Origin: Paraflavitalea pollutisoli
GTDB taxonomy: Bacteria > Bacteroidota > Bacteroidia > Chitinophagales > Chitinophagaceae
Direction: 5' to 3'
DNA: 64,000 nt
Assembly: GCF_029360705.1 (NCBI RefSeq)
Contig: NZ_JARKMX010000014.1
Span: forward strand, 372,001-436,000
Every line of letters starts with the position of its first letter. Position 1 is the first letter of the stretch. Below the pieces are notes generated by a model. The model was not told the DNA's origin, searched no databases, and saw nothing but the letters and a program-made list of their open reading frames with translations. The position numbers and the translations under genes were made by a program. Of the stretch, positions 24,631 to 51,459 are shown piece by piece.

Positions 24631-24682
24631 ATACAAATACAACCGTAGCGGGAAAAACAATTTAGTCACTGAAAATTTGAAC

Positions 24683-25699
24683 ATGAAATATAAGACATGC
24701 GGATACAAGCAGGCCCTTGCTTTGTCCGTGGCGCTGAGCGCATCCGTACTCTATGCTGCCGGACAGGACAAACCGGCTCGCAGCCTGAGCCTGGAAGAAT
24801 ACGAAAAAGCCAAGGCTTTTGCCGTGAAGGACCTGGACAACGATACCTATGTGAAGTTTGAGAATGCTTATGTACTCGACCGGTACGAGAGTCGTAAGCC
24901 TTATTTCATCACAGGCGATGATGGCAAAAAGAAACGCATCGACATTTACAAACTGCTCGCCAAGGAAGGCATGGCCGACCTGGGTGTGATGGTGTTCTAT
25001 ACCAACGAAACCGGCAAGGTATACAAGGCCGTGATGCCCAGCTTTACCGCCGACGCCAAGGTATGGAACAAGTATTTTGAAGATATCCATGCCATCGACA
25101 AGCAAGAAGCCAATTTTGTACTGAAGCTGTCGTATGTACTATCCAAAGAGTTTGGCTTCCAGCTGTACAAAGCTGCCAATGCGGGTAAAGACCTGAGCAA
25201 GGAATCGGGTACCTATGGTAATGATATTTGTTTCCCCGGCAGTATGCAGGTAAGCATGGCCGATGGCGGTACGCGGGCGTTGGAAACGATTCAACCGGGC
25301 GACCGGATCGTAACCGTCGATGCGGCCACACAACAGACTACCGTGGTGACGGTGAAGGAGCTGACTTCCCATGCAGCCAGTAACTATGCCCTTACGCAGC
25401 TGACTTTGCTGGGCGCCCAGGAAACGGTGACTGCCGAAGGTACCGCCGTATTGCTCTCCGCCAAGACATTGTCGGCCACCCCCAACCACCCGGTCAAGAC
25501 ACGGAACGGCGACAAAAAGATGGGTGAGGTACGGGCTGGCGATGAGATCCTTTGCGCCGATGTTCGCGGTGGTGGTTACCAGGCTTTCCGGGTGTGGCGG
25601 GTGGCCGAAGGGGCTGGCGGACACCAAAAAGTGTACAATATCGTAGCCGACGGCGGCAGCACCTTCGTGATGAACGGGGTGATGGTATTGCAGAAGTAA
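24683..25699 (+). CDS. secreted protein with C-terminal Hint (hedgehog/intein-type) domain
   Basis: 338 residues from the ATG at 24683 (MKYKTCGYKQ). Signal peptide to about 27, then an unknown domain of about 150 residues with EYEKAKAFAVKDL. The Hint domain spans Cys183 (DICFPGS) to the end: ALETIQPGDRIV, the TPNHPV block (266-271) with the catalytic Thr and His, and a terminal VYNIVADGGSTFVMNG. The usual intein-final His-Asn and +1 nucleophile are absent, and the protein ends MVLQK, so splicing is not expected. An N-S shift at Cys183 with release of the N-terminal domain is possible. Confidence 0.85.
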   Translation: MKYKTCGYKQALALSVALSASVLYAAGQDKPARSLSLEEYEKAKAFAVKDLDNDTYVKFENAYVLDRYESRKPYFITGDDGKKKRIDIYKLLAKEGMADLGVMVFYTNETGKVYKAVMPSFTADAKVWNKYFEDIHAIDKQEANFVLKLSYVLSKEFGFQLYKAANAGKDLSKESGTYGNDICFPGSMQVSMADGGTRALETIQPGDRIVTVDAATQQTTVVTVKELTSHAASNYALTQLTLLGAQETVTAEGTAVLLSAKTLSATPNHPVKTRNGDKKMGEVRAGDEILCADVRGGGYQAFRVWRVAEGAGGHQKVYNIVADGGSTFVMNGVMVLQK

Positions 25700-25752: not shown

Positions 25753-26217
25753 TTTATTTTACGGAAAATCCCGATCGCATAATAATTCGTGCTGATTGAA
25801 TAACTCGGGTAACGTAGATTGCATACAGGTTTAGGATTTCCATTAGTTTGGACAGGGCACCTCTCAACATTCGAACTTCCCTAGTTTACGTGCAAACTCA
25901 CTTATTGTAACAAACGGTAGTAACGGCGACGAGACCCGATCGCTGGTGAACTACTCTTACACCTCAATCTGGTACGGTTCAACGCAATGATGAAGCAAAA
26001 AATTGTATCTTTTTTACAGGCTTAATGGTTAAATGGCGCGCTGCGCGGGATGCACAGCAATCCCTGGATGTACTCCATTGCTGTCTGTGGCCAGGATGGC
26101 TATGGAGCAACCGGGGATGATGGTGTGTATTCCGCAACAGCCAGTCGTTTTGATCAGGCGGCTGTCGACACCTCTATTCCTGCACCTAGCATTCATTCAT
26201 CTATTAAACCTTTTGCT
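25753..26217. other. gene-poor gap before the AraC-type gene
   Basis: About 465 bases. The reading frame of the AraC-type gene is open back to 26050, but that part has no recognisable domain. Apart from ATTAAACCTTT at 26197-26207, a partial match to the susC-upstream motif, I see no conserved feature. Confidence 0.5.
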
Positions 26218-26583
26218 ATGCAAATTCAATTATCAGAAGCCGATGTGCAAAGACTTGCCCTTGTACGTGAGACTATTATGAAGAACCTGCGTTATCATTA
26301 CACGATCCCCACGCTGGCGCAGACCGCAGGCATCAATGAGTTCAAGCTCAAAACAGGATTCAAAGCGCTGTATGGCCAACCGGTGTTTGATTTCCTGACC
26401 GAACAGCGGATGCGAATGGCGATGGAACTGATGGAGAGCAACAACTACTCCATCGGTGAGATTGCCCACCGTTGCGGTTACAACCATCCTACTAATTTCT
26501 GCGCGGCTTTCCGTAGGCGGTACCATATCCGCCCATCCGATTACCGGAAGAATATCCCCGAGCAGATCAAGAGTGCCGTATAA
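26218..26583 (+). CDS. stand-alone AraC-type DNA-binding protein
   Basis: 121 residues from the ATG at 26218 (MQIQLSEADVQR). It consists almost entirely of the two helix-turn-helix motifs of AraC: first IPTLAQTAGINEFKLKTGFK, second SIGEIAHRCGYNHPTNFCAAFR, ending HIRPSDYRK. There is no ligand-binding domain, a type common in Chitinophagaceae. An in-frame ATG at 26050 would add 56 residues of no known domain. It lies upstream of the MauE/sigma/SusCD module but is separated by a strong terminator. Confidence 0.85.
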   Translation: MQIQLSEADVQRLALVRETIMKNLRYHYTIPTLAQTAGINEFKLKTGFKALYGQPVFDFLTEQRMRMAMELMESNNYSIGEIAHRCGYNHPTNFCAAFRRRYHIRPSDYRKNIPEQIKSAV

Positions 26584-26931: not shown

Positions 26932-27366
26932 ATGAAACGTACTATTTTACTGGAGATCATTGTTGCCTTGTTTGTTGTGTTGTTCCTGTATACGGCGATC
27001 AGCAAGCTGATGGAATACAGCATTTTTGTAGAGCAACTCAAGGAATCGCCGATCGTCGGCTTTGCTGCGGTGCCGGTTGCTATAGGTTTACCCTTAGTCG
27101 AGTTTGCGTTGGTGGCCGGCCTGGTGTTGCCCCGGTGGCGGTTACGTGCTTTGTATGCCTCTAGCGGGCTGATGGTTGCCTTTACTATTTATATTATCGT
27201 GTTGATGAATGTAGCAGAGCACCTGCCCTGTAGTTGCGGCGGTGTATTGGCCCAGTTGTCGTGGCATGAACATATTGTATTCAATTTAGTATTCATTGTA
27301 TTCGGGATATTGGGTATTCTGCTGCATCGCAAGGAGTTGCATGCCGGACGCGCTATACCCGGTTAG
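26932..27366 (+). CDS. MauE/DoxX-like redox-associated membrane protein
   Basis: 144 residues with four predicted membrane helices. The pattern LYTAISKLMEY after the first helix, and CSCGG (about residues 101-105) before the last helices, matches the MauE/DoxX group of Bacteroidota. These proteins are thought to assist periplasmic thiol-disulfide chemistry. It lies 93 bases upstream of the sigma factor of SusCD module 1 on the same strand, and a TlpA-like gene lies near module 2. The link is inferred. The 348-base gap before it holds only the terminator above. Confidence 0.8.
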   Translation: MKRTILLEIIVALFVVLFLYTAISKLMEYSIFVEQLKESPIVGFAAVPVAIGLPLVEFALVAGLVLPRWRLRALYASSGLMVAFTIYIIVLMNVAEHLPCSCGGVLAQLSWHEHIVFNLVFIVFGILGILLHRKELHAGRAIPG

Positions 27367-27459: not shown

Positions 27460-28113
27460 ATGAACGAATCGCTCCCGATCTTAAAACGGCTGCAGGCCGG
27501 CAACAAGCAGGTCTTATTCGAGCTGGACGCTCAATATGCTGAAGGCCTGTTCCGGGCACTCTCTTACCAACGACTCCTGGTCAATCAAGCTGATTTCGAT
27601 GAAATCTTTAACGAAGCGTTGCTGAAAATCTGGGAAAGCCGCGATGAATTGCCGGCTGATACGCAGGTTGGCCGGTTGCTGTGCACGATGACGCGTCGTA
27701 AGGCGATCGACCGTTTTCGGCAGTTCAGTACGCGGGCGGGGCAGTTGTTGCGGCCGGTGATGCCCGAGCAACTCGAGGAAGGCGCGCTGGATGAGCCCGT
27801 CGCTACCCATGAGTGGCCAATGTGGCAGGCCCGGATCGACCGGTTCCGGTCGGCTGTGGATCAACTGACCGAACCTCAACGGGCGGTGATCGAGCTGGTC
27901 TTCTTCCAGGGTAAGTCGCTGCGAGAAGCGGCCCGTGAGTTGAGTATGGCTTATACCACGGCGGCGACACACCGGGTGCGCGCCCTGGAAAAGATGCGCG
28001 ACTATGTAGCTCCTTATATTACGCCAGATATTTTAGATCAACTAGCGCCTTTACTATCAGCGCTTTGGTTACTTATTTCAACTTTTTTAAAAAATAATTG
28101 CCTCCCGATGTAG
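27460..28113 (+). CDS. ECF sigma factor (FecI-type), module 1
   Basis: 217 residues. Region 2 shows FDEIFNEALLKIWES followed by RRKAIDRFRQF; region 4 shows LTEPQRAVIELVFFQGKSL and AYTTAATHRVRALEKM. The C-terminal 35 residues end in a hydrophobic stretch. It precedes a FecR gene by 28 bases and should direct transcription of susC1-susD1 when the receptor senses its ligand. Confidence 0.9.
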   Translation: MNESLPILKRLQAGNKQVLFELDAQYAEGLFRALSYQRLLVNQADFDEIFNEALLKIWESRDELPADTQVGRLLCTMTRRKAIDRFRQFSTRAGQLLRPVMPEQLEEGALDEPVATHEWPMWQARIDRFRSAVDQLTEPQRAVIELVFFQGKSLREAARELSMAYTTAATHRVRALEKMRDYVAPYITPDILDQLAPLLSALWLLISTFLKNNCLPM

Positions 28114-28141
28114 TAATAATTCCAATTTGCTCGGCTTTACT

Positions 28142-29356
28142 ATGAACTCAACCTTGTCTATGGAATATCTCGACACACCAATATCCATCATCTACTGGAA
28201 AAACCAGTACGGTGAGCCGCTGACGGTCGAGGAAGCCGAGCAGTTGGAAGCGTGGCAACGGGCCCATCCGGGCAAGGCACCTCATGTGGTGCTGCACAAT
28301 GAGCTAACCTTCCATGAAGCTTTTAAACAAGGGCGACAGGCAGCGATGCAACGGTTACTGGCGACCATCGATCCAGCGACTGTTCCGGCGGAGACGGAAA
28401 CTCCTGTGGTGCCTATGCCTACTACGCGTTGGTACCAGCAACGCAGGATCGTTGTGGCAGCGGTAATTGCCGGCAGTGTAGGGATTGGCGTAGCGCTGTG
28501 GATGCCTGACCACAAAACGGCCGAATCCGGTCAGACGCAACAGGTAGCCCATACTGTCCAACGTCCAGCAGCCAGCGATACGGCTTTGTTTGTAGAACTG
28601 GCGGATGGGGAACGGTTTGCGGTGGGGACGAAAGATACTGGTGTGTTGGCGCAACTGGGTAGTGTTCAGCTACGTAGTACCGGGTCACGACAATTGGTAT
28701 ACGAGGCAGTGGCCGGTGAAAAAGGGGAGGCTCTGATCCATCATAAGATCGTTACGATTGGCCAACAGCTGGTTACTGTTGAACTAGTGGACCATAGTGT
28801 GGCCGAGCTGGGACCCCATAGTTTACTACAGGTAGACGTATCCGGCAGTAGTGAAAAAAGAATTGTACATTTGGCAGGTATCGCGCATTTCACGGTGGCG
28901 CATGATAAAAACCGTCCTTTTATAGTCAATACTGCTGGTGCCACGCTACAAGTATTGGGAACTGAGTTTGTGGTGACTACAAAAGACAAGGATTTCACGA
29001 CTGTTGGACTGGTGAATGGGTCCTTGCTGGTATCGGGCGCGCGGCAACGGGCCACGCTTGTACCCGGACAAACGGTTCAGGTATCCCCTTCGGGCGACGT
29101 CAGGTATGTAAAAGACCGTTTGAACAGTTTACTTGGTTTTACAGAGAATCGATTTTATTATAGTAATAAAACGCTGGCTACCATTACAGCAGATATCGAA
29201 CAATGGTATGCCGTGCAGCTAATCGACAGCAACCCCTCAGATTCGTTAGGCACTTATCATTTTGGTCCTGTACCCCGCGACCTTCCGTTGACTAAAGTAT
29301 TGGAAAAACTAAACAAGCTGACAGGGCACCAGTTCCGATACGAGCAACGACCTTAA
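28142..29356 (+). CDS. FecR-family anti-sigma factor, module 1
   Basis: 404 residues from the ATG at 28142 (MNSTLSMEYL); a TTG 15 bases upstream is the only earlier start. The cytoplasmic N-terminus carries EEAEQLEAW. One membrane helix (about 100-120, VVAAVIAGSVGIGVALW) follows, then the periplasmic FecR domain with VGLVNGSLLVSG and VPGQTVQVSP, and the C-terminal DUF4974 part with LTKVLEKLNKLTGHQF. It should hold the upstream sigma factor and receive the signal from the STN domain of SusC1. Confidence 0.92.
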   Translation: MNSTLSMEYLDTPISIIYWKNQYGEPLTVEEAEQLEAWQRAHPGKAPHVVLHNELTFHEAFKQGRQAAMQRLLATIDPATVPAETETPVVPMPTTRWYQQRRIVVAAVIAGSVGIGVALWMPDHKTAESGQTQQVAHTVQRPAASDTALFVELADGERFAVGTKDTGVLAQLGSVQLRSTGSRQLVYEAVAGEKGEALIHHKIVTIGQQLVTVELVDHSVAELGPHSLLQVDVSGSSEKRIVHLAGIAHFTVAHDKNRPFIVNTAGATLQVLGTEFVVTTKDKDFTTVGLVNGSLLVSGARQRATLVPGQTVQVSPSGDVRYVKDRLNSLLGFTENRFYYSNKTLATITADIEQWYAVQLIDSNPSDSLGTYHFGPVPRDLPLTKVLEKLNKLTGHQFRYEQRP

Positions 29357-29558: not shown

Positions 29559-32500
29559 ATGCCTGAAAAAGTCCAGAGGGTAACACTACTGCTCACCATG
29601 CTGCTGCACACCACGCTGGTGGTGTGTGCTTACGACACCAGCCGCACCTATCCGGTCAATTTCAAAAACACACCGATTGCGCTGGCGCTACAATCCCTGA
29701 CCCAACAGTCGGGACAAGCGATTAATTTTCAAACCCAACAATTGCCGCCGAGGTGGCGGGTAACGCTCGACACCACGGCTACCGTCCTGGAGATCGTAAG
29801 GTTGCTGTTTAAGGATCAGCCTTATTTTATCGAGCTCACGGATGGTGATATTTATATCCGGCTCAAACCGGCCCGGATCGTTACCCTGCGCGTGGTGAAT
29901 CCGGCGAAGCAGGCTTTGGAAGGTGTGACCATCCGGGATCTGCGGCAGGACTCGAGCCGGAGTGGCTCTACCGATGCAGACGGTAAGTGGCAATGTCTGC
30001 TCTTTGGCGACTCGCTGCCAGTGGAACTGACGATGATTGGTCATTACTCACGGCGGACCGTGGTTTACGACCACCAGGAAATTGCGCTGGAGGAAAATAT
30101 TGCCGAATCGGATCCTGTGGTGATTGCCTATGGCAAGAGTCCGCGGCGGCGGATTGTGGGTAATGTGTATGAAGCGAAGATCAATTTCGTCGGCAAACCT
30201 TATGACAATGTCAATAGTCTCCTGCGGCTATTGCCGGGTGTGCTGGTAAGGAACAAAACCGATATACCCTGGGGCAGCCAATCTTTGGAGATCGAAGGCT
30301 CCCGGACCATTCAACCGCTTAGTGGCATCCGGCAGGTCGATGAACCACTTATACTCATCAATGGACTTCCTTGCCCGGCGCGCGTGGGGTCGCTGAGCCA
30401 ATTGGCCTCTGCGGCTGGAGATCCCAGCAATACCGGCGCCGGTTTACACCCGCTCAGCTTTTTGAATGTCGATGATATCGAAACGATCACGGTACTTAAA
30501 GATGCCAGTGCTACCGCCATTTATGGTGCCCGGGGTGCCAATGGCGTTATCCTGATTGAATTGCGCAAACCCACCAACCAAACCCCGCTGTTCAACCTGT
30601 ATGTGATGACCGGCATTACCAGCTCCTATCGCCGGCCGAAAACGTTAAACACGACTGAATTCCTGGACTTACGCCGTTCGGCCTTTCCCCCCGGTACCGT
30701 TTTCGATAAGACCAATTTTCCTGAGTTGTATATGGACAGCAGCTTGTACACGAATTGGTCTGATGTGCTGTACAAGAATACCGCTATCTCGCACACCACC
30801 CAATTCTCTGCTTCCGGCCAGGTGAGTCGTGTAAGCTGGTTGGGCAGTTTCAATTATCGCCGTGACTCGTATGTGTTCCCGACGCACAATAAAGATGAAT
30901 GGGCCCGGTTTTACAACCAGCTTAACTACAAATCACAAAACCACAAACTGGAGCTCAACAGTTTTGTTTCCGCCAGTATTGGCGAAAATGCTACGCCTGC
31001 ATCCGAGCTCACCCCCATCGTATTTGCTACACCACACGCGCCTAGAAAACTGCAAGCTGATAGCCTCGATGTTTATAACCATCCCTTGCGCTGGTTCAAT
31101 AGCCAGTACCGGGCTCAATCCAACTACTACCTGGCAAACCTTCAATTGAGTTATTCTTTTCTGAAATACTTTAAAGTCAAACTGGACGGTGGCATTGGCT
31201 GGCAGCAATTGAAAGAAAAGGCCAGTTTTCCGCTTTCCTATTATCCACCCGATAGCAGTAGTCGTGGTCATATCGACCAGGCTGGTCGACAGATCTTCAC
31301 CTGGCTGGTAGAACCACAATTGCATTTCCATCTTGCCCGCGGCAAACTAAGCTGGAACGCACTTTTAGGCGCCAACTACCAGCAGTCAAAATATCGCAGC
31401 GAGGTTCGTACCCTTCCCGGCTATACCAGTGATGACAAACTCAATCAACAGTTGGTCTACCCTACCCTGGATACCTTCTGGACGCAGTACAAGCTGCTCA
31501 GCTTTTTTGGTCGTGTGAACCTGGAAATCGATCAACGATACGTATTGGAAGGCAGCGTTCGCCAGGATGGCTCCTCCCGCTTTGCGCCTGAAAACCAGTT
31601 CGGCATCTTTTACTCGGTGGGCGGGGCCTGGTTGTTGTCTGCTACCAACTTCTGGAAACCACTGCAGCCCGTTATCAACCTCGCCAAGCTGCGGGTCAGT
31701 CATGGCGTGACCGGCAACGACCAGGTGGACGATTATGGTTATATGGGTCAATATAGGGCTACGAATGTCGCCTATCAATACGGCGCTTTGCCAGGATGGG
31801 TGCAGAACCTACCGGCCAGTAATAAATTAACCTGGGCAGAGACCCGCAAAACCGAAGCGGGTCTCCACCTGGAATATAAAAAGCGTCTCGGCCTTGATCT
31901 GGGCGCTTACTGGCACCGTAGCATTAACCAGGTAATCCGCCTGCCATTGGCAGCGCAAAGCGGGTTTAGCGAACTGGCCTATTGGAATTTCCCGGTCGTT
32001 GTCGACAATCGGGGCTGGGATGTATCATTGCATTACAAAACAGTGAATACCACCAATCGTTGGCAGACCTCCCTACAATTGAATTATACACATCCCCGTA
32101 ACCTGCTACGCTCCTTTGATTCTATCACCACCAATATACTACGTCAGGAATTACTATTGAGCAAACCACTTACTGCCAGAAAACTGTATCATTATACCGG
32201 TGTAGATCCAATTACTGGGCTATACACGGTGGCCGACTTCAACGGAGATGGCAAGATTACGGACGTGGACAAACAATCCATTCGCGATGTGGAAGTCAAG
32301 GGCTATGGGAGCCTTTCTGTGCAAGTGAAATATGGCCGATGGGCTGCTGGCTTTATCCTGGAAGGCCGCCAACAAACTGGATATTCTGCCATCTCTTACG
32401 CCAATCAACGACTATTTCCGGGCCGACTCGAAGCCTCAGGTTTCAGCAATCAGCTACAGAGTGTGTTGAACCGATGGCCTGTTGCCAATGCCCAATATCA

Positions 32501-32795
32501 ACGACCTGCCACCTCTCTCAGCACAGCGGCAGACAAGGCATTCGACCACTATATGAATTCAGACGCCATTCAAACCGATCAAAGTTATGTCTGCCTGAGG
32601 CACTTGGCATTGGAATATACCTTTCCCTTCAAAGGAATTTTCAATAAATCCATTAACCAAATGCGCCTTTTCCTGCAAGGCCAAAACCTTGTGGTACTAA
32701 GTAGATATAAAGAAGGCAACCCCACGCTTACCCAACCATTTGCACAACCCGTTACGCGGACGTTCAGCCTCGGTGCACAAATTAGCTTTAAATAA
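29559..32795 (+). CDS. SusC/RagA-family TonB-dependent receptor with STN domain, module 1
   Basis: 1078 residues. Signal peptide to about 24, STN signalling domain (about 30-105, IALALQSLTQQSG), carboxypeptidase-regulatory-like domain (about 108-180), then the plug opening with VVIAYGKSPRRR and the SusC signature ITVLKDASATAIYGARGANG, then the barrel ending LGAQISF. IAYG replaces the common VGYG at the plug start, as in the other two SusC proteins here. With SusD it imports a ligand through the outer membrane; the STN domain passes the signal to FecR. The ligand is unknown. Confidence 0.93.
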   Translation: MPEKVQRVTLLLTMLLHTTLVVCAYDTSRTYPVNFKNTPIALALQSLTQQSGQAINFQTQQLPPRWRVTLDTTATVLEIVRLLFKDQPYFIELTDGDIYIRLKPARIVTLRVVNPAKQALEGVTIRDLRQDSSRSGSTDADGKWQCLLFGDSLPVELTMIGHYSRRTVVYDHQEIALEENIAESDPVVIAYGKSPRRRIVGNVYEAKINFVGKPYDNVNSLLRLLPGVLVRNKTDIPWGSQSLEIEGSRTIQPLSGIRQVDEPLILINGLPCPARVGSLSQLASAAGDPSNTGAGLHPLSFLNVDDIETITVLKDASATAIYGARGANGVILIELRKPTNQTPLFNLYVMTGITSSYRRPKTLNTTEFLDLRRSAFPPGTVFDKTNFPELYMDSSLYTNWSDVLYKNTAISHTTQFSASGQVSRVSWLGSFNYRRDSYVFPTHNKDEWARFYNQLNYKSQNHKLELNSFVSASIGENATPASELTPIVFATPHAPRKLQADSLDVYNHPLRWFNSQYRAQSNYYLANLQLSYSFLKYFKVKLDGGIGWQQLKEKASFPLSYYPPDSSSRGHIDQAGRQIFTWLVEPQLHFHLARGKLSWNALLGANYQQSKYRSEVRTLPGYTSDDKLNQQLVYPTLDTFWTQYKLLSFFGRVNLEIDQRYVLEGSVRQDGSSRFAPENQFGIFYSVGGAWLLSATNFWKPLQPVINLAKLRVSHGVTGNDQVDDYGYMGQYRATNVAYQYGALPGWVQNLPASNKLTWAETRKTEAGLHLEYKKRLGLDLGAYWHRSINQVIRLPLAAQSGFSELAYWNFPVVVDNRGWDVSLHYKTVNTTNRWQTSLQLNYTHPRNLLRSFDSITTNILRQELLLSKPLTARKLYHYTGVDPITGLYTVADFNGDGKITDVDKQSIRDVEVKGYGSLSVQVKYGRWAAGFILEGRQQTGYSAISYANQRLFPGRLEASGFSNQLQSVLNRWPVANAQYQRPATSLSTAADKAFDHYMNSDAIQTDQSYVCLRHLALEYTFPFKGIFNKSINQMRLFLQGQNLVVLSRYKEGNPTLTQPFAQPVTRTFSLGAQISFK

Positions 32796-32800
32796 ATTCT

Positions 32801-34195
32801 ATGCGAGCTGTATCCTGCACAATGATTCTTTTAACTATCCTATTAGTTGGTTGTACTAAACTCACGAATGTCGATGGACCACCCAACCGATTTGACAATC
32901 CATTCCAGAGTGATGAAACGGCCACTGGTCTGATTTTGGGTATCTACGAGAAAAATATGGAACGTCAATGTCTATTTAACGGACACATGAGCCGATATGG
33001 CGGATTACGAAGTACCGAATTTGCACTTCGAATTGTCAGCGGAGATGACGGCGATTTCCAGCTTTTACAGTTGAAGCCCAATAATCGCGTGCTCGGTTTC
33101 TTATGGTTACCAGCTTACGAATGTATTGCCCGCTGCAATCTTGTATTGCACGAACTACCTGGAGCAAAGGATGTTAGCGAATCATTAAAGCCCATTCTTT
33201 TGGGCGAAGCCTATTTTCTGCGTGCTTTGAGTTACTTCTACCTCGTAAATCTCTTTGATAGTATTCCACTCGTCACCGGCATCGATATTGGAGAAAACAG
33301 TCAATTACCGCAATCAGGAGCGAAGTCCATTTACGATCAGATTGAGCAGGACCTCCAGGCAGCCCTACCACTTTTACCAGATCGACATCCAGATACAGGA
33401 TTGGACTCATTACGCCGTACCCGCATCGAAAAGGGAGCTGCAAACGGCTTATTAGCGCGCGTTTATTTGTATCTAGGTAACTATGAACAAGCAGCCCACT
33501 ATTCCACTCTTGTAATTGAGCAAGGTGGCTATCAAATGGAGAATCTAGAGAAAGTATTTTATAATACTAGTAGAGAAACTATCTTGCAATTTAAACCGGT
33601 TATGGCCACTGCCAGTACCGCTGAAGCTTCCATCTTTTTACCAGACGTGGGTGGCATACCTAATTATGAACTAACGAATACAGTATTACAATCATTTGTA
33701 GCCGGGGATTTACGCAAGTCTCAATGGACACGATTGATGCGTGTTGGTACGCAAGACAAATACCAGGCAAGAAAATACACTATCACTACAGCGCAACCCC
33801 GATTAGAATACAATATCGTATTAAGATTGGCCGAACAATACCTAATAAGGGCCGAGGCGCGTGTGCGCCTCGGCGATATTTCAGGTGCTAGTGCCGACCT
33901 TAGCATTATTCGGCAACGCGCTGGCCTCAATTCTCTACCCGGGAACAGCACAGTTTTGAGCTTACTACAGGCTATTGCTTCGGAACGACAAGCAGAACTG
34001 TTTGCAGAATGGGGCCATCGATTACTAGACCTGCATCGCTGGTGGTCATTGCCGACTGGTGATGTACTACAATTTCGCGCCGACAGCGTATTGAAATCAC
34101 AGCCAGGATGGCATCCGTATATGCGTCATTGGCCCATACCGCAACAAGAATTGTTTAAGAATCCGCAACTACATCAAAACGAAGGCTATAACTGA
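32801..34195 (+). CDS. SusD/RagB-family lipoprotein, module 1
   Basis: 464 residues, starting 5 bases after susC1. Lipoprotein signal with lipobox LLVGC. SusD traits are YFLRALSYFYLVNLF, GLLARVYLYLGNYEQA, LRLAEQYLIRAEAR, AEWGHRLLDLHRW and the terminal FKNPQLHQNEGYN, a variant of the usual NPxLxQNPGY. It is the lid that closes over SusC and binds the ligand. The gene stops 2 bases before the stop of the convergent small exported protein gene. Confidence 0.93.
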   Translation: MRAVSCTMILLTILLVGCTKLTNVDGPPNRFDNPFQSDETATGLILGIYEKNMERQCLFNGHMSRYGGLRSTEFALRIVSGDDGDFQLLQLKPNNRVLGFLWLPAYECIARCNLVLHELPGAKDVSESLKPILLGEAYFLRALSYFYLVNLFDSIPLVTGIDIGENSQLPQSGAKSIYDQIEQDLQAALPLLPDRHPDTGLDSLRRTRIEKGAANGLLARVYLYLGNYEQAAHYSTLVIEQGGYQMENLEKVFYNTSRETILQFKPVMATASTAEASIFLPDVGGIPNYELTNTVLQSFVAGDLRKSQWTRLMRVGTQDKYQARKYTITTAQPRLEYNIVLRLAEQYLIRAEARVRLGDISGASADLSIIRQRAGLNSLPGNSTVLSLLQAIASERQAELFAEWGHRLLDLHRWWSLPTGDVLQFRADSVLKSQPGWHPYMRHWPIPQQELFKNPQLHQNEGYN

Positions 34196-34197
34196 CA

Positions 34198-34512
34198 TTA
34201 ATAATTACTGTAAATAATCGCAGTCGCTTGGCTCGCATGGTATCCCCACTCAAAGGCCGTAAGGCCAGCGCCTGAAGAACCGCTGAAAGTATAACCGGAA
34301 TAGGCGCTGCGCAATCGAGTCAATTCATCATTCACCGTCGAGACCTCACCAGTGAATGACACCCAATCCGGATCGTTGTACCAGGAATACGTTACACGTC
34401 TATCAATAAATGGAGCAATGGTTGCATCTGGACCGGGAGGTGTTGTTGGCAAAGCGTTAACTTGCACGAGCAGGCAGGCAGCGACTAGCACTGCGAAGAT
34501 TGCTTTCTTCAT
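34198..34512 (-). CDS. small exported protein, family A (copy 1)
   Basis: 104 residues, signal peptide cut near NALP. The mature part has RRVTYSWYNDPDW, ELTRLRSAY and GLTAFEWGYHASQAT. The same pattern (YxWYxDxD, ELxRLR, GLTxxEWGxH, AT) is found in the 93-residue protein at 58472-58753. No Cys, no membrane helix in the mature part. I do not recognise the family; the size and signal resemble small DUF6520-type Bacteroidota proteins. It converges on susD1 with 2 bases between the stops. A leader hairpin of GAGGTT/AACCTC arms lies before the ATG. Confidence 0.75.
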   Translation of the reverse strand: MKKAIFAVLVAACLLVQVNALPTTPPGPDATIAPFIDRRVTYSWYNDPDWVSFTGEVSTVNDELTRLRSAYSGYTFSGSSGAGLTAFEWGYHASQATAIIYSNY

Positions 34513-39281: not shown

Positions 39282-39569
39282 CTAATCCTCAATGCCGACA
39301 GCTTTTGACTTAAAACAAATTGATGTAGACGGGCATAGAGTTGTGGTTATGGGACAAGCATATGTAGCCGCATACTCTTGGGCAGCGCCATCAATAGTAG
39401 AAGAGTTTGTGCAACTGATTACAATCCGATTGCAAATCGTAGTCGTCAAAGTAGTTGTCAACAGACGAGAATATGCACATACGTTAGGTGTTTTCACTTT
39501 GAATGCAAACAGTGCGCTAACTGCACTAATTACGACAATTCCATAAATCATTGCTTTGGGAGTGTTCAT
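39282..39569 (-). CDS. small exported Thr/Cys-rich protein, family B (copy 1)
   Basis: 95 residues from the ATG at 39569 (MNTPKAMIYG). Hydrophobic signal stretch, then FKVKTPNVCAYSRLL, Thr-rich LTTTLTTT, and CPITTTLCPSTSICFKSK. It shares AFKVKT, NVCA, the TT-x-TT block, CP-x-T and KSK with the protein at 46060-46359. Five Cys in the mature part. The leader carries a hairpin also found at copy 2. The layout resembles DUF6520 proteins; function unknown. It stands 3' of the GH51 gene on the same strand, separated by a terminator. Confidence 0.7.
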   Translation of the reverse strand: MNTPKAMIYGIVVISAVSALFAFKVKTPNVCAYSRLLTTTLTTTICNRIVISCTNSSTIDGAAQEYAATYACPITTTLCPSTSICFKSKAVGIED

Positions 39570-41746: not shown

Positions 41747-42222
41747 GAATAATTCGATTAATGATTATCCCGGCAAATCCGGTACTCCATGAAACGAACA
41801 ACCAAGCACTTTAACTATTCGTCTTCTGAATTTTCCCCAACTGCCCTTTACCTATTGAAGTTAAAGCTAGCTAATTGAATGTCACCAGCACTAAATCGCG
41901 CAAACCTCACAACTTTGTACACTACTCAAAAAATACTCTTTTCATCAGCCAAAATCCTAATCCAATTATATCAAGGGTATATCTTGCATACAGTTCACGC
42001 AGCAAGGCAATGACCACGATGAATTTAGTTTGCACAATTCCTTTTACCCCGACCAAGAGCCGACCCAAATTCACATTACTACTCAAAACATCTTTTATTT
42101 AACTAAAAGATCATTACCAGCATACTTATATACTAATCACAGGCTACACATTCATTAACCGAACAAGAGCTGCTGCATCGCATTTCTGTCGCGCAGTTGC
42201 TCAATCATTGAACCTTATACAT
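41747..42222. other. 476-base divergent control region, GH51 / fusion gene
   Basis: AT-rich, without recognisable gene, repeat or TAnnTTTG box. It must hold the promoters of both divergent genes. Confidence 0.5.
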
Positions 42223-45200
42223 ATGCCCAAGAAAGCCATTATTATCGGCGCAGGTCCTGCCGGCCTTACTGCCGCGTATGAGCTCCTGAAACGTACCGAC
42301 ATCAAGCCAATCGTCATCGAGAAATGCAACCAAGTGGGTGGCATTTCCAAGACCGTCAGTTATAAGGGAAACAAAATGGACTTCGGTCCACACCGCTTTT
42401 TCTCCAAGAGCGACCGGGTGATGAACTGGTGGACCAACATCATGCCCCTCCATACCCCTAAAGGAGAAGACCTTACGATCAGTTACCAAAACAAATCGAG
42501 AACCCTTGACACAGGTAATTTCCTGACTACCGACGAAACAAATGGGCTACCCCCCAAACAGTCGATGATGGTCATTCCTCGTCTCACGCGCATCTATTTC
42601 CTTCGTCAGTTCTTTGCCTACCCAATACAATTATCCATCGCCACACTTGGCCAATTGGGTATTTGGACTACCATTAAAATTGTGTTCTCTTACCTATATG
42701 CCCGGCTGGTTCCCCGTAAACCAGAAAACAGCCTGGAAGATTTCATGATCAATAAGTTTGGCAGTGTACTTTATCACATTTTCTTCAAGGATTATACCGA
42801 GAAGGTGTGGGGCATGGATTGCAATAAGATCTCTGCAGATTGGGGCGCGCAACGCATCAAAGGCGTTTCATTGAGTAAGGCAGTTATCCATGCAGCGAAG
42901 GCACTCGCCAAAAAGAAAAAGAAGACTGATATCAATCAAAAAGATACAGAAACCAGCCTGATCGAGCAGTTCCTCTACCCAGCTATGGGCGCCGGTGCGA
43001 TGTGGGAAGAAGTGGCCCGCCAGGTGGAAGTGATGGGGGGCAAGATCGTCAGCAATTACGATGTTAAGCATATCCTGACCGAAGGTGATCAAATCACCGG
43101 CATCCAGGCTTTAAATATGCAAACAGGACAGCTTGAATCTCTGGAAGGAGACTATTTTTTCTCTACCATGCCCGTCAAAGAGCTAATCAGCGGCATGAAA
43201 ACGGATGTACCCACAGAAATTAAGGATATTGCAGAGGGGCTCATTTATCGGGATTTTGTTTACGCAGGCGTGCTGGTCAAGAAGATGACCATGGCCACCC
43301 CAAAAGATAGCTGGATCTATATCCAGGAGAAGGATGTAAAGGTTGCCCGCATGCAGGTATATAATAATTGGGGACCTTATATGGTAGCCGATCCCAATAC
43401 GGTATGGCTAGGCCTGGAATACTTCTGTACGAAAGGCGATGCGATCTGGAATACTACGGACGAAGATATCAAGAAGCTAGCCGTTGAGGAACTCATCAAA
43501 ATGGACCTCATCACACGCGAAGATGTGTTGGACAGCACCGTTAACCGGATGGAAAAGACTTATCCTGCTTACTTCGGCACCTACACCCGGTTTGAGGAAA
43601 TACAAAATTACCTGGAGCGTTTCCCCAACCTGTTCCTTGTTGGACGAAACGGCATGCACAAGTATAACAATACCGACCATAGTATGCTGACGGCGATGGT
43701 AGCGGTAGACAATATCGCCGAAGGAATTACCAGCAAAGCTAACCTGTGGGAAATTAATACCGAGCAGGAGTATCATGAGGTCAAGAAAGATTCGATTCAG
43801 GAAAACAACGGCACCCTCGATAAAAACGCACCAGTTCCTAATTTCGGGGGCAATAGAGCCGCAGCTGGTGGGTTGAAATCATTTATTCTTCGCGACAAAA
43901 CAAACCGGCAGTTTTTATGGTTTGCGGCCATCATCTCCGTCATACAATTTGTGATATTTAAGTACTTCTATCCATTCGCCCATTATATACACGGAGATTC
44001 CTTTGTCTACATACAAGCGGCTTCTGGCAATTGGGACATTAATACGCACTTGATCGGCTACTCCCGTTTCTTACGACTATTTAGTGTGTTCAGCAGTTCA
44101 GATGTATTATTAACCGCCTTTCAATACCTGATAGCACAGGCAAGTGGCATGTTTTTCCTGTTCACGATCTTCTATTTCCATCAGATTGGAAGAGTCATGC
44201 GATATATCCTAGTGATTATTATGGTCGTAAATCCAATGTTTTTGTACATAGCCAATATGGTTTCCAGTGATTGCCTCTTCATGAGTTTAAGTCTAACCTG
44301 GTTTTCGCTTCTATTATGGATTCTATATCGGCCATCCAATCTAATTATTCTAGCACACACCATAGTAATTTCATTTGCATTCACTGTTCGTTATAATGCA
44401 CTGGTATATCCCGGGATAGCCGTCTTGGTATTCCTTTTCGCAAAAATACCTTTTCACAAAAAGGCCATTGGTATAGGATCATTCCTAATTCTTTGCGGGC
44501 TATTCGTCGCCTATACTGGAAATAAATTCAAAGAGCTAACTGGCATTTGGCAATTCTCGCCTTTCAGCGGCTGGCAGGCAGCGAATAATGCTATGTATAC
44601 GTATCGCTATGTCGACAGCGCCGACAGAAAGCCTGTTCCCAAAAAGTTCTTTGCCCTAGATAGTACGATCAGGGACTATTTTGATAAACACAGAGATATT
44701 AAGAAGTTTCCCATTGAAGACATAAAGGCCAGCACTTTCTATATGTGGACACCAGGACTGCCACTATACGCCTATCGAGACAAAGTTTTCTTTGACAAAA
44801 AGGATACACTTGCAACTGATTTGAAGATGTGGTCAAGTATGGGGCCATTGTACAAAGACTATGGAACCTGGATTCTTAAGCAATACCCTCTTCAATTTGC
44901 ACAACATTTCGTCGGGCCAAATTTTATCAAGTATTACGCCCCGCCAGCAGAATTTATGGAATTCTACAACGGAGGAAACGATAGTGTCACCCTCGGAGCC
45001 GTAAAATGGTTTCATTATAAAAATGCCCACGTTTATTCCCGAATTATGGATCCCAAATCTTATATACTTGAAATTTATCCGATTGTTACGGGGATGATGA
45101 ACGTTATGCTGTTTTGTTCACTAATCTGTTTCGTATGGCTAGGCGGACTGAGGAGAACAACTCCTCTAAAAAAAACCTTAATCCTAGTATTTGCTATTTG

Positions 45201-45387
45201 GTCCATCAATGCAATATTCACCATCCTTTCATCGCCAGCTGCTATTCGATTGCAAGCTTTTCCTATTTTGCTTGAAACAGCTTTTGCGTTGATTTTGGTA
45301 GACTGGCTATATAACTTGGCAAGTAAAACTGAATTAGCGAAGACTTCGAAAGAGCAAAACTCACTAAATACGGCAATCACGAACTAG
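42223..45387 (+). CDS. fusion: UDP-galactopyranose-mutase-like flavoenzyme plus polytopic GT-C-like membrane domain
   Basis: 1054 residues from the ATG at 42223 ([14 protein letters not shown]); the TTG 15 bases upstream is less likely. Residues 1-510 form an FAD-dependent protein: GxGxxG motif at 9-14, [19 protein letters not shown] (54-62), [10 protein letters not shown], and a final [21 protein letters not shown]. This is the UDP-galactopyranose-mutase/protoporphyrinogen-oxidase-like group of polysaccharide clusters. After a linker (about 510-560) come about ten membrane helices; the first loop has HGDSFVYIQ (590-598), the Asp-containing loop typical of GT-C glycosyltransferases. Such flavoenzymes are normally about 500-residue single proteins. 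The frame is continuous. A TlpA-like gene follows after 34 bases. Confidence 0.8.
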
Positions 45388-45421: not shown

Positions 45422-45913
45422 ATGAGATATTCACCGCTAATATTATTACTAATTTTTTCTGCTTGCTTTGGCAAGAAGCCGGAAACAACAGGAAACGAGG
45501 GTAAAACACTTCCAGAATTCAGCCTATTAATGCTAGACAGTACCTATCTCAACACAAAAAATATAAAAACAGGCAAGCCATCTGTATTCTTCATTTTTAG
45601 CGCCTATTGCCCACACTGTAAATCGCAACTTTTAAGCATGCTAGACAATATGGATAAATTAAATGAGACCCAAATCTATATGATAGCCCAAGAACCACTT
45701 TCCGCAATTAGGGAATACTACAAAAATGCAAACCTGGTTAAATTCCCAAATATAAAAATGGGAATCGACACTTCAGGATTTCTCGGAGAATACATGCACG
45801 TAAAAGGGATACCCTATTTGGCCTTATTTGACAAGGAGAAAAAATTACTTAAAGCATATTTAGGTCCGACTAAAACATCCATAATCAAAGACGGCCTTTC
45901 CTTAAACAACTAA
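45422..45913 (+). CDS. TlpA/thioredoxin-like lipoprotein
   Basis: 163 residues. Lipoprotein signal with IFSAC (Cys15). Thioredoxin-like fold with FIFSAYCPHCKSQ, the redox pair Cys63-Pro-His-Cys66, and a cis-Pro in VKGIPYLALFD. The CPHC pair fits a periplasmic thiol oxidoreductase anchored to a membrane. It lies 34 bases after the fusion gene and 146 bases before family-B copy 2, whose mature form has Cys residues that could be its substrate (inferred). Confidence 0.85.
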   Translation: MRYSPLILLLIFSACFGKKPETTGNEGKTLPEFSLLMLDSTYLNTKNIKTGKPSVFFIFSAYCPHCKSQLLSMLDNMDKLNETQIYMIAQEPLSAIREYYKNANLVKFPNIKMGIDTSGFLGEYMHVKGIPYLALFDKEKKLLKAYLGPTKTSIIKDGLSLNN

Positions 45914-46059: not shown

Positions 46060-46359
46060 ATGAAAAGAGTAAAAATCATGCTGACTTCAGTACTTGCATT
46101 GGCAGTTGTTGCTGGTGCTGTAGCTTTCAAAGTAAAAACTGATAATGTGTGCGCTTGGGCAAAATTATTCCCAACAACCGTCACCACACCTTCGACTACA
46201 CTTTTTTCAACCGACAGAGTGACAACAATTCCAGGTATTCGCGCAACTACAACTACTACAGCAAACGTATATGCGCTAACACAAGTTACTACAGCGGCTG
46301 AATGTCCCACTACACCTGTAATTGGACTGAAAAGCAAGACAATCGCAAACGAGGAATAA
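46060..46359 (+). CDS. small exported Thr/Cys-rich protein, family B (copy 2)
   Basis: 99 residues from the ATG at 46060 (MKRVKIMLTS); earlier in-frame codons run through the hairpin and lack a signal. Signal stretch LTSVLALAVVAGAVAF, then KVKTDNVCAWAKLFPTTVTT, a Thr-rich middle (ATTTTTA), AECPTTP and KSKTIANEE. About a quarter of the mature part is Thr; two Cys. Paralogue of 39282-39569. It converges on susD2, with the terminator 46383-46409 between. Confidence 0.7.
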   Translation: MKRVKIMLTSVLALAVVAGAVAFKVKTDNVCAWAKLFPTTVTTPSTTLFSTDRVTTIPGIRATTTTTANVYALTQVTTAAECPTTPVIGLKSKTIANEE

Positions 46360-46531: not shown

Positions 46532-48001
46532 CTAATAACCAGGGTTTTGAGTTAGTCGTGGATTAAATAACAAATCATTAAAAGGTATAGGCAAAAGTTG
46601 GTCTTCAGTCTCCCACGTACCACCTTTCTCAGGCGTAACCTTACTCATTATCTCGTTAATTTTATTAACTCTTTTCAGATCAAACCATCGATGCCCCCAT
46701 TCACAAAATAGTTCAACTTGACGTTCATGAAGAATTGCATTCAATAATTCCTTCGCTGAAACTGAAGAAATAACTTTTTCAATTAATGGAAGATTAGCTC
46801 TCAGTCTAACCTTATTTATATCATCAATGGAACCATTCAAATTACCTTCGTTTGCTCTAGCCTCTGCCCTTATTAAATACATTTCCGATAATCTAAGGCA
46901 AATGCTGTATTCCTGCATTTGATCTAAATTTAATAGATTGGGATTATATTCTCCTTCCTTATACTTATAGGGAAAATAAGATAAATTAGGGGGCTCCCCA
47001 AAACTACTAATCCACAAATCCTCCCTTTGATCATCTGGTTCAAATGCATTTAAAAGATACGAACTTAACTGAACCTGTTTTTCAAAGCCTAACCCAGAGG
47101 GTATTGCTGACAAATTAAATCTTCGCCCTTCAGTAGTATTCCAACCAATACTAGTTGGTTGAATCTGCCAAATAGCATCTTTTGAGCCTTTTAAAAATGT
47201 AAATCCTATTGGATCTAAATTGAACAAGGCAGTATTATCAATTATTCTAGTGGATTCCATTTCCGCCAGTTGCCACTTTTCAGAATAAATATATACACGT
47301 GCTAGAAGTGCAGTAGCCGCCCATTTTGTTGGACGTACACGTTGTTCTAGACCCACTCCATAATTAGTCAAACGGCCATTTAAATATTTGTCGTTTAAAA
47401 GCTCCCTTGCACTCAACAGATCTTTAATAATGGCTTGGTACACCTGATCGACTGATGTTCGAACCAATAAACGAGTCTGCTCTGGATCAGTAGAAGTCGG
47501 CAAAGGAATACTACCATATAAATTTACAAGATAAAAATTCAACCAACTTCTAATAAATAAGGCCTCCCCTGTTAGTTGATCCTTAATCCTACTCGTCAAC
47601 TTGCTGTTACCCTGTAGCCCTTCCAAAGCTGAATTACAACGAAAAATTAAGTTGTAATACGAATTCCAAAATTCGTGTCCCCGAGAAACACTTTCATTAG
47701 AAGCCAAGGAATTATGGTAGTAGTCTAGCTTTGCCATATCAGCTCCATCCCAAATCGTCCATTCATCAGCTAAAAGTCCAACCAATTCAGCAATCTCGGC
47801 CCCCATATCTATTAAATCTGAACTGATTCCAGTCAAAACAACAATCGCCGTTTCGTCTGTTGTAAACATACTGGCTTGAGAAACATTACCCTTTGGAACT
47901 TCTACTTGCACGAATTTTCGGCAATTTACAAATTGCATTATCAAGAAAACAAATATGGCATGAATCAAAGTAAGTCTGCTTTTTCCTGATTTCATTCTCA
48001 T
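46532..48001 (-). CDS. SusD/RagB-family lipoprotein, module 2
   Basis: 489 residues. Lipoprotein signal with MQFVNC (Cys27). SusD traits are EALFIRSWLNFYLVNLYGS, ALLARVYIYSEKW, CLRLSEMYLIRAEAR, CEWGHRWFDLKR and the terminal FNPRLTQNPGY. Hand counts of sampled lines give about 37-40% GC, lower than the neighbouring core genes. It follows susC2 by 38 bases and should act as its ligand-binding lid. Confidence 0.93.
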   Translation of the reverse strand: MRMKSGKSRLTLIHAIFVFLIMQFVNCRKFVQVEVPKGNVSQASMFTTDETAIVVLTGISSDLIDMGAEIAELVGLLADEWTIWDGADMAKLDYYHNSLASNESVSRGHEFWNSYYNLIFRCNSALEGLQGNSKLTSRIKDQLTGEALFIRSWLNFYLVNLYGSIPLPTSTDPEQTRLLVRTSVDQVYQAIIKDLLSARELLNDKYLNGRLTNYGVGLEQRVRPTKWAATALLARVYIYSEKWQLAEMESTRIIDNTALFNLDPIGFTFLKGSKDAIWQIQPTSIGWNTTEGRRFNLSAIPSGLGFEKQVQLSSYLLNAFEPDDQREDLWISSFGEPPNLSYFPYKYKEGEYNPNLLNLDQMQEYSICLRLSEMYLIRAEARANEGNLNGSIDDINKVRLRANLPLIEKVISSVSAKELLNAILHERQVELFCEWGHRWFDLKRVNKINEIMSKVTPEKGGTWETEDQLLPIPFNDLLFNPRLTQNPGY

Positions 48002-48039: not shown

Positions 48040-51000
48040 TTATAAATTTATCTGGGCACCAACTGTGATAACTCTAAGTGGGGGAAGCCCACCAAGACTT
48101 AAGGTTTCGGGATCTAAACCATTATATCTACTAAAAGTCAAAATATTTTGCCCATTCGAGAAAATTCTTAGTTGTTTTATCTTAAGTCTCCTTAGTAATT
48201 TCTGAGGCACTGTATAGGAAAGTGAGATATTCTTCAATCTTAAGAATGACAGGTTTTTATATGCCAAATCTCCCAATATTGTGGGCATTCCAGTACTAGA
48301 AGAAGCATACTTCTGATATATCCCTGGCATTTCGGGACTTTGCCACCGGTTTAAGACAGCAACTGGTTGATTACCGTATACAACATATGGATCGTTAAAA
48401 GCTACTAACCCAGCAACAGTAGTAAATCTAATAATATCATTAGCCTTTCTATTGCTAAATTGCCAGAGGAAATCTAATGTTAAAGACTTAAATGTGAAGG
48501 AATTTTGAAACCCTCCATACCACCTAGCACTAGTATTATATAAAATCGTTCTATCATCCAAAGAGGGCTGAGAAGTAGGTTGCCCATGGGTACTATTAAA
48601 CTGGTATATACCTTTCTCTCTATTTAAGCCATAATAAGAATATGTCTTCGTAGTTCCTAGCGGTGCACCAATTAGCATGGTATTACTTAATGGTGACAAA
48701 TCCAGACCAGGGAATTTTACAAGTTTATTGCGAGGGATCGTTAAATTGAAACTAGCATTGTATTTAATATTTCCCAGGTTAACACCAGAACTAGTAAGTA
48801 AAAACTCCCATCCATCATTCTGAATTACTGCAGGTAAATTTTGAAGATATGATCCGAAACCTGTCATGATTGGCATATTTACTGATGTCAAGCTATTTGA
48901 ACTCCTATTATTATAGTAATTAATTGACAAAAGACATTTATCGTTAAATAAACCAATGTCAACGCCAGCCTGCATTTTTCGAGTCTCTTCCCACTCCAAA
49001 TATGGATTTGGCAACCCTGTTGGCGCATACACACCTGAAGTTCCTTGATAAGAAATATCCCGATAAGACGGTTGATAAAGGTTCATAAATCTATAGTTGC
49101 CAATCTGATCGTTACCAGTGGTTCCATAGCTACCCCTTATTTTTGCAAAACTAACTATACTAAATAGTCTCCTGAAAAAGTTTTCCTCGCTAACCACCCA
49201 CCCGATCGCCACTGAGCCAAAATTATTAAATTGACTTTCGGATCCAAATCTAGAACTTCCATCACGTCTCGCAGATAAATTCATCAAATACTTACCTCTG
49301 TATGAATAGGCTACTCGGCCAAAAACAGCATTATATTTGTATTCACTAGCATCAACCCCCCAAGGTCTAATTACCATACCAGATGTCATATTTTTTAACA
49401 AAGCATCGCTTGAAAAACCCGTCACCCAAAAACCTCTGCCATCATTGACCTGATTTTGAAAAGTCGTACCCGCTAAAACATTTAAAGAATGAAACCCAAT
49501 TTTAAATTGCCACAAAAGTTGGGGTTCAACAATCCAGCTGCGTGTGTTATTATAATTAAACTTTGAACTCCTTTCTCTACCTTCTCGCTTTTCAGGCTTC
49601 TCAGTTTCTTCATAAGAGGCACTAAATTGATCCGAAGCCATTGATGTAAATCCGAATGTGCTTTTAAGCTCAAGTCCATCAATAATTCGATAGCTTACGC
49701 TTGCGTTACTTATTAAATTGTCTACTTTAGTTTCAAAAACATTATAAAGCTTGGATAATGGATTGTACCAAGTTGAATTACCATTTGTGGGATTAGGCGC
49801 CCAATTTAAACTTCCATCACCATTGAATAATGCGGGAGCTACTGGTGGCAAATTAAGAGCGTAGCTTGTAAAATCAACACCTGGTAATTTATTTAGGTTG
49901 TACATATAACTAGCCCCCATTTGCAACTTAAATCGCTGATCTTTAGAAGTTGCTGAAACATTTAAATGAAGACTTCCTAACGAATTTGCGAAAGACCCGG
50001 GAAAAACAGTGCTTTCACGGCCATAAGTAGAGCTAACCAAAAATTGGGTATATTCAGATCCTCCCGAGACACTAACGGTACCTCTTGTAAAGTTTGCATT
50101 ACCTCCAATCAACTCCTTCTGCCAATCTGTGTACCGAGTGGTATCCCAAACACCTCGCAAGTCATAGTCGCTTGACAATATTGGTCTCCCGTCGTTTCGT
50201 TTTGCCTCTCTGCGCATTTCCATATATTGAGCACTGCTGAGTAGTTTAATCTTTTGGGGAACATGTCCGACACCTTGTTGTAAATTCACATCTATTTTAA
50301 GACTTCCTGGCTTTCCTTTTTTTGTTGTTATGAGAATTGCCCCATTGGCCGCTCGCGAACCATATATTGCAGTAGCATCCGCGTCCCTTAGGACAGTAAT
50401 GCTTTCTATGTCAGCCGGGTTAATGTAGGCGAGTGGGCTTCCATAATTTGACAAACTTCTTTCTCCATCATTTGATGATGTGCCTAGAATAGGTACATCT
50501 CCCCCACCCGAAAATGTGGATAGATTTTGCGAAGAATAGGGGATACCATCAACTACTATAAATGGATCTGAGCCAACAACTGAATTGTCTAAGTTGTTTC
50601 TTCCTTGAATCCTTATAGTAACTCCACCACCTGCAATCCCATTTTCTTGAGCAACTACTAATCCAGGAACTCTGCCAGCTAAGGATAATAACGGATTGTT
50701 TATTGGTTGCTTTTCTATGTCTTCGGCCTTAATAGTTACAATTGGCCCCAAGCTCATACGTTGGGATGATTTTCCATATGCAATGATTTGGACCTCGTCC
50801 AGCTTGCTAGTCTTACCTTTGACTGTTACAATTATTGAAGTTTGGCCTTTGATAGCAAACTCAGACGTTTCAATATTTGTTCCAGTCAAAATCAATACAG
50901 ATGTAGCTTCAACCCTTTTTATTACAAATTCTCCATCCCCATCAGTTGAGGTTCCTAATTTATTGTTTCCTTTAACTTGTATTGAAACCCCGGCCACCGG

Positions 51001-51459
51001 ATCGCCCCTTTCATTTATTACACGACCACGCACATCAATCTGTAATTGATAAACCAACTCAAGATTTTGTTGTATCTGGATTTTTTTCTCAATTTTTTCC
51101 TTTATAATAATAACACGTTCGATCACGGTGTATGTCAAAGGTTGACCTTGAAGAATGACACCTAATGCATCAAAAATCTTAGCGTTAGCTACATTTATGG
51201 TAATCGGCTTTGCTTTGGCCAAATCAGTTTCGCTGTAAGTAAAAGTATAACCAGTTTGTTTCCTGATCTCTGTGAGCACTTTTGAAAGTGGGGCGTCCTT
51301 GAAATTTAGATTTACCACTTGAGATTCACCTGGCGGATTAAATGCCACCATAGGAATCAACCATACAATCAAAAATAACAGTTTGTAAAATCGCTGAAGT
51401 TTTGCTATCGTATCAGCATTGGGGCAGTTTTTTCGTTGACCATAAGCAGATCGTAACAT
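48040..51459 (-). CDS. SusC/RagA-family TonB-dependent receptor with STN domain, module 2
   Basis: 1139 residues. N-terminus with a cytoplasmic stretch before the signal helix (KLLFLIVWLIPMVAF), STN domain (about 48-120, LSKVLTEIRKQTGYTF), carboxypeptidase-regulatory-like domain, plug starting DEVQIIAYGKSSQR with VDGIPYSSQN and the signature ITVLRDADATAIYGSRAANG, and a barrel ending VGAQINL. Like susD2 it is AT-rich. It shares the IAYG plug start with SusC1 and SusC3. The ligand is unknown. Confidence 0.93.
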   Translation of the reverse strand: MLRSAYGQRKNCPNADTIAKLQRFYKLLFLIVWLIPMVAFNPPGESQVVNLNFKDAPLSKVLTEIRKQTGYTFTYSETDLAKAKPITINVANAKIFDALGVILQGQPLTYTVIERVIIIKEKIEKKIQIQQNLELVYQLQIDVRGRVINERGDPVAGVSIQVKGNNKLGTSTDGDGEFVIKRVEATSVLILTGTNIETSEFAIKGQTSIIVTVKGKTSKLDEVQIIAYGKSSQRMSLGPIVTIKAEDIEKQPINNPLLSLAGRVPGLVVAQENGIAGGGVTIRIQGRNNLDNSVVGSDPFIVVDGIPYSSQNLSTFSGGGDVPILGTSSNDGERSLSNYGSPLAYINPADIESITVLRDADATAIYGSRAANGAILITTKKGKPGSLKIDVNLQQGVGHVPQKIKLLSSAQYMEMRREAKRNDGRPILSSDYDLRGVWDTTRYTDWQKELIGGNANFTRGTVSVSGGSEYTQFLVSSTYGRESTVFPGSFANSLGSLHLNVSATSKDQRFKLQMGASYMYNLNKLPGVDFTSYALNLPPVAPALFNGDGSLNWAPNPTNGNSTWYNPLSKLYNVFETKVDNLISNASVSYRIIDGLELKSTFGFTSMASDQFSASYEETEKPEKREGRERSSKFNYNNTRSWIVEPQLLWQFKIGFHSLNVLAGTTFQNQVNDGRGFWVTGFSSDALLKNMTSGMVIRPWGVDASEYKYNAVFGRVAYSYRGKYLMNLSARRDGSSRFGSESQFNNFGSVAIGWVVSEENFFRRLFSIVSFAKIRGSYGTTGNDQIGNYRFMNLYQPSYRDISYQGTSGVYAPTGLPNPYLEWEETRKMQAGVDIGLFNDKCLLSINYYNNRSSNSLTSVNMPIMTGFGSYLQNLPAVIQNDGWEFLLTSSGVNLGNIKYNASFNLTIPRNKLVKFPGLDLSPLSNTMLIGAPLGTTKTYSYYGLNREKGIYQFNSTHGQPTSQPSLDDRTILYNTSARWYGGFQNSFTFKSLTLDFLWQFSNRKANDIIRFTTVAGLVAFNDPYVVYGNQPVAVLNRWQSPEMPGIYQKYASSSTGMPTILGDLAYKNLSFLRLKNISLSYTVPQKLLRRLKIKQLRIFSNGQNILTFSRYNGLDPETLSLGGLPPLRVITVGAQINL

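Follow-up and report, generated by a model that had tools for sequence, protein, structure and literature searches.

Genes of the Analyzed Locus

The window, i.e., the whole analyzed stretch of 64,000 nucleotides, contains three susD genes, and each of them is accompanied at its 3' side by a gene encoding an exported protein of 93-104 amino acids. This adjacency had been reported in a first-pass annotation and was recovered when coordinates, gaps and strands were rechecked. The genes relevant to the analysis are:

27460-28113, + strand: ECF sigma factor of module 1 (PF08281, 1.2e-10)
28127-29356, + strand: FecR-type anti-sigma factor of module 1 (PF04773, 1.5e-13)
29559-32795, + strand: susC1, 1078 aa; Plug domain, divergent N-terminus that is STN-like by eye; in the A-linked SusC clade
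32801-34195, + strand: susD1, 464 aa (PF07980, 1.3e-25); member of the A-linked SusD set
34198-34512, - strand: A1 (family A), 104 aa; convergent to susD1 at a distance of 2 bp
39282-39569, - strand: B2 (family B), 95 aa; adjoins a GH51 arabinofuranosidase gene, no susD beside it
45422-45913, + strand: TlpA/redoxin-like lipoprotein (Redoxin, 7.6e-9), upstream of B1; a usual neighbor of family B
46060-46359, + strand: B1 (family B), 99 aa; DUF6520-like; convergent to susD2, gap 172 bp
46532-48001, - strand: susD2, 489 aa; of a SusD type widespread in Chitinophagaceae
48040-51459, - strand: susC2, 1139 aa; STN domain; outside the A-linked SusC clade
58472-58753, - strand: A2 (family A), 93 aa; 182 bp 3' of susD3, same strand
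58936-60351, - strand: susD3, 471 aa (PF07980, 3.6e-31); A-linked set
60357-63728, - strand: susC3, 1123 aa; its own FecR and sigma genes lie just past the window end

All three SusD proteins match the Pfam families SusD_RagB and SusD-like_3. The Pfam STN domain was detected in susC2 (1.6e-12) and not in susC1 at E<=1; the N-termini of the A-linked SusCs appear STN-like by eye. The small proteins A1, A2, and B1 all satisfy a simple signal-peptide rule and lack a conserved lipobox Cys, and searches of Pfam and NCBIfam gave nothing for them at E below 0.1. A1 and A2 are homologous (E 1e-11), as had been proposed, and B1 is unrelated to both. A single family comprising A and B was rejected, as no A-B similarity was detected and their matches are separate. 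The idea of one and the same relation at all three susD genes thus holds for the adjacency, but it covers two unrelated cases, family A and family B.

Two further ORFs of the window deserve mention. Positions 24677-25699 (+) encode an exported-looking protein of 340 aa with a C-terminal Hint (hedgehog/intein-type) domain (PF01079, 2e-9) and almost nothing beyond, and positions 42208-45387 (+) form an ORF of 1059 aa, the first ~527 residues of which match FAD-dependent PRK07208 proteins; it may be a fusion with an unmatched second half.

Distribution and Genomic Context of Family A

A search of the genome contigs with A1 alone yielded no matches and a query built from the Niastella/Longitalea subset recovered eight loci. 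With the family A profile, 28 good loci were identified in 20 of 396 Chitinophagaceae genomes, among the carriers Niastella and Longitalea, and three more genomes gave only weak matches. Outside the Chitinophagaceae, family A was not found in a sample of 395 genomes of the phylum.

Inspection of neighborhoods of 15-20 kb revealed an ECF sigma-FecR-susC(-susD) operon whose 3' end directly adjoins the family A gene in 24 of the 28 cases. The binomial probability of this number falling by chance into the 410-bp flanks is ~1e-52, a rough value, as the related genomes are not independent. The enrichment of family A homologues beside susC/susD, for which the first-pass annotation had asked, is therefore present, and family A is no chance neighbor of sus operons. 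The remaining four genes are two extra tandem copies (L063 and L064) and two orphans with no sus operon nearby (L044 and the truncated L065).

Convergent orientation was found for 22 of the 24 operon-abutting genes, with gaps of mostly 2-20 bp. Since A2 and the gene of locus L050 encode the same protein on the susD strand, this orientation is usual and not required. With gaps mostly below 20 bp the convergent transcripts probably overlap, and A could conceivably work mainly as antisense RNA against susD or susC, the protein being secondary. The two same-strand genes speak against this, as does the purifying selection acting in A codons outside the susD overlap, and we regard such a mode of action as highly improbable.

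Nineteen of the 24 genes adjoin susD, and five adjoin susC in operons devoid of susD (L047, L048, L052, L054, and L055). ECF sigma factor and FecR genes were located directly upstream of susC in the 19 units with susD as well as in the five without. Within 20-kb neighborhoods only the genes for sigma factor, FecR, SusC, SusD, and A recur widely between genera; a recurrent CAZyme or peptidase gene was not detected there. Sigma factor, FecR, SusC, A, and usually SusD form a five-gene unit that is kept across four genera. The first-pass annotation had regarded susD as the constant partner of the small gene, which does not hold for family A: because five operons keep A without SusD, A belongs to the SusC transducer, and the constant elements are SusC and the sigma/FecR pair.

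The A-linked transporter proteins also stand apart by themselves. When the same genomes were searched with a SusD profile, the top 19 matches (607-733 bits) were exactly the 19 A-linked SusDs, followed by a match of 548 bits with a gene of ~440 aa, not A, on its 3' side; as 13 of the 19 A-linked SusDs had been used to build the profile, this score gap is partly built in, and the other six group alike. The A-linked SusCs group together in the SusC tree (support of the clade 0.997), and A accompanies 24 of the 25 members; the lone exception is the second SusC of locus L047 (12575-15871). As judged by profile and tree, family A defines a subtype of sigma/FecR-coupled SusC(D) locus. The suggestion of a new type of SusCD locus can be upheld insofar as family A marks one monophyletic SusC(D) subtype; it does not extend to SusCD loci at large. 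In the literature searched, no paper on DUF6520 or on the arrangement of A and sus genes was found.

Several observations were made in the vicinity of these units. Several species of the genus have a gene pair for an AraC-type regulator and MauE close to A-linked modules (window 26050-26583 and 26932-27366; L046 and L049). At locus L250 (genome G383) a 107-aa exported protein with a Y-x-W-Y motif is encoded convergently, abutting the susD stop; it is possibly a remote member of family A (hhalign 36 percent). Locus L066 carries a short A-like remnant (9872-10081, -; 31 bits), which is oriented convergently to a susD; the SusC that goes with this susD is not a member of the A-linked clade.

Properties of the Family A Protein

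A1 is composed of a signal peptide, a short linker and a conserved domain of ~65 aa with the pattern YxWYxD...E..RL...GL..FE.G...I.S. Among 27 family A members there is no conserved Cys near the signal peptide, as would be expected for a SusE/F-like lipobox. The DUF6520 profile did not reach its cut-off against family A (best E 0.085, in two of 27 members), and the two are unrelated. With no match in Pfam or NCBIfam, family A is a new, so far unnamed protein family.

Within the Niastella/Longitalea group pN/pS amounted to 0.33 for A, 0.27 for SusD, and 0.25 for SusC, and the family A core, with a pN of 0.21, is as constrained in this group as the signal peptide. The family A gene is under purifying selection, and a chance ORF is ruled out by the homologues, the linkage and pN/pS. 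Most A start codons are preceded by a conserved TAAAACC-like stretch, which by eye differs from the one before the sigma gene.

AlphaFold2 models of family A were poor, with a mean pLDDT of 54 (10 sequences) and 56 (12 sequences) for inputs consisting of window sequences and the less diverse relatives. The conserved part was modeled with modest confidence as beta-alpha-beta-beta-beta, and a Foldseek search with the poor model returned no fold match. A PDB match to grappling hook protein A (5.4e-7) was discarded, as it adds up 13 YxWYxD snippets of a repeat protein, each of them below threshold, and has no single significant stretch. Likewise, a fusion of the A domain within a 549-aa protein at locus L067 was dismissed; the match is weak (18 bits) and the protein resembles the L,D-transpeptidase type.

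Proposed Role of Family A

Bacteroidota rely mainly on SusC(D) systems for import, and for most of these no ligand is known. When TonB-dependent transducers with an STN domain sense a ligand, they signal to anti-sigma factors of the FecR type. We propose that one lineage of SusC cell-surface-signaling transporters in soil-type Bacteroidota has in family A a dedicated exported partner, a reading to which we assign a probability of about 50%. Family A is probably part of an import and sensing system, and with respect to the roles suggested in the first-pass annotation (ligand, processing product or accessory of the complex), we prefer an accessory or ligand-delivery role.

A possible course of events begins with the export of A by its predicted Sec-type signal peptide (simple rule), by which a small soluble domain would be freed into the periplasm or to the outside. 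The domain may then bind SusC or the ligand of SusC and would either deliver or present this ligand to the transporter or itself act as the inducing ligand, whereupon SusC would signal via its STN-like domain to FecR and then to the sigma factor. Encoded in a separate, usually convergent unit, A could be made before, or independently of, the sigma-driven expression of susCD, and its action would not depend on SusD. Counting against this reading are the poor structure models, the missing fold match and the two orphan A genes at L044 and L065.

The layout resembles that of HasI-HasS-HasR-HasA for haem uptake in Serratia, where sigma factor, anti-sigma factor and TonB-dependent signaling receptor are likewise adjoined by a gene for a small exported protein, and where HasA is secreted, binds to HasR and participates in signaling and induction (PMC9249621). 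By analogy, family A is perhaps a ligand-delivery or inducer protein. The systems differ in that HasR is not a SusC and no SusD is involved, and hasA is part of the receptor operon, with secretion genes of its own, whereas family A genes mostly run convergent to their operon; neither Pfam nor NCBIfam places family A in a known hemophore family. With SusCD/RagAB systems under FecI/FecR-type regulation the units share SusD, an ECF sigma factor, FecR and a SusC that carries a plug and a region which by eye resembles an STN domain, but they add a lineage-specific exported protein, include five cases without SusD and are devoid of conserved CAZyme or peptidase genes. SusE/SusF-like surface lipoproteins are also encoded by accessory genes 3' of susD; the mature family A protein, in contrast, has only ~65-85 aa, lacks a conserved lipobox Cys and is usually encoded on the opposite strand.

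The exported protein might also be the cargo or signal itself, i.e., an autocrine or kin-recognition peptide which is exported, possibly clipped, and imported by its cognate SusC(D). Such a peptide would agree with A being the only other gene conserved in a unit without degradative enzymes nearby and with the second tandem copies at L063 and L064, and SusCD/RagAB systems can import peptides (PMC11817032). The core of ~65 residues, however, resembles a folded domain kept by purifying selection and not a processed peptide, and no conserved protease or dedicated secretion gene was found near A, so that we consider an imported peptide rather unlikely.

Because an outer-membrane export signal was not recognized in family A, a periplasmic site is favored over an extracellular one. 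There, A could act as a regulator on the STN domain of SusC or the C-terminal domain of FecR and tune the release of the sigma factor without touching the ligand. The periplasm is the default place of a soluble Sec-exported protein, and the strict linkage with sigma factor, FecR and SusC, with SusD dispensable, would fit well; on the other hand, A shows no similarity to known signaling domains in Pfam and NCBIfam, and a purely regulatory function appears doubtful to us.

Being linked to a single SusC lineage and kept where SusD is missing, family A would represent an unrecognized component, and as a short exported protein it would offer an experimental handle on ligand recognition and signaling by SusC units without degradative enzymes. 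It is a considerably more speculative proposition that a Bacteroidota SusC transducer has in family A a secreted protein ligand or "substrate-phore", which would be the first class of this kind to be described, and that its lineage, which in places lacks the SusD lid, senses or imports through an exported partner of its own.

Family B and the Frequency of Small Exported Genes Beside susD

The genome of 8.76 Mb contains about 102 SusD matches. A small exported gene of the A, B, or DUF6520 kinds was present 3' of susD in four of 100 susD genes checked, a survey by the simple signal-peptide rule without a trained gene caller, which may have missed a few small genes. Three of the four are those of the window; the fourth is a true DUF6520 gene at C14:145121. 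The remaining susD genes are mostly followed by a large gene on the same strand. Since only four of 100 show it genome-wide, the occurrence at every susD is a local trait of this neighborhood. Downstream of susD an exported 98-aa ORF was also noticed that contains, by eye, little beyond an STN-like domain and may be a stand-alone or truncated signaling domain (L123, 7160-7528, +; in the genome itself on C12 near 394316).

In family B proteins the signal peptide is conserved, and the mature part varies and contains Cys and Thr. In layout, a short exported protein with Cys, they equal DUF6520 (PF20130), against which several relatives of family B scored 12.8-21.1 bits, i.e., below the curated cut-off of 25.4; B1 itself has no DUF6520 match. 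Family B can thus be described as remotely DUF6520-like by sequence and is a separate and weaker case than family A. SusD2-type genes occur in 115 of 396 genomes, and a B or DUF6520-like gene was located at their 3' side in four of 29 loci examined. Family B, which had been included in the pattern by the first-pass annotation, hence adjoins susD only sporadically.

The small genes beside susD, those of family B and others that are DUF6520-like, might nevertheless share one functional slot, general to SusCD loci with sigma/FecR and occupied by unrelated small exported proteins. Convergent genes of DUF6520-like or other small exported proteins do recur beside susD (B1, L197, L209, L217, L251, L130, and L053 at 7452-7757), an A-like one is found in L250, too, and the sporadic cases of L053, L250, and L251 leave room for a looser general trend. 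Their low frequency in the SusD2-type loci and in the genome argues against a shared slot, and so does the usual setting of family B, next to genes for a TlpA-like lipoprotein and a peptidase of the S9 type (the S9 label deriving from reading the sequences); we judge it rather improbable. A tandem array of family B genes was observed between peptidase-like genes on contig 10 of genome G318 (233889-247459 and 307639; L069, L079, L082, and L084-L087), which looks like a diversifying family of exported peptides.
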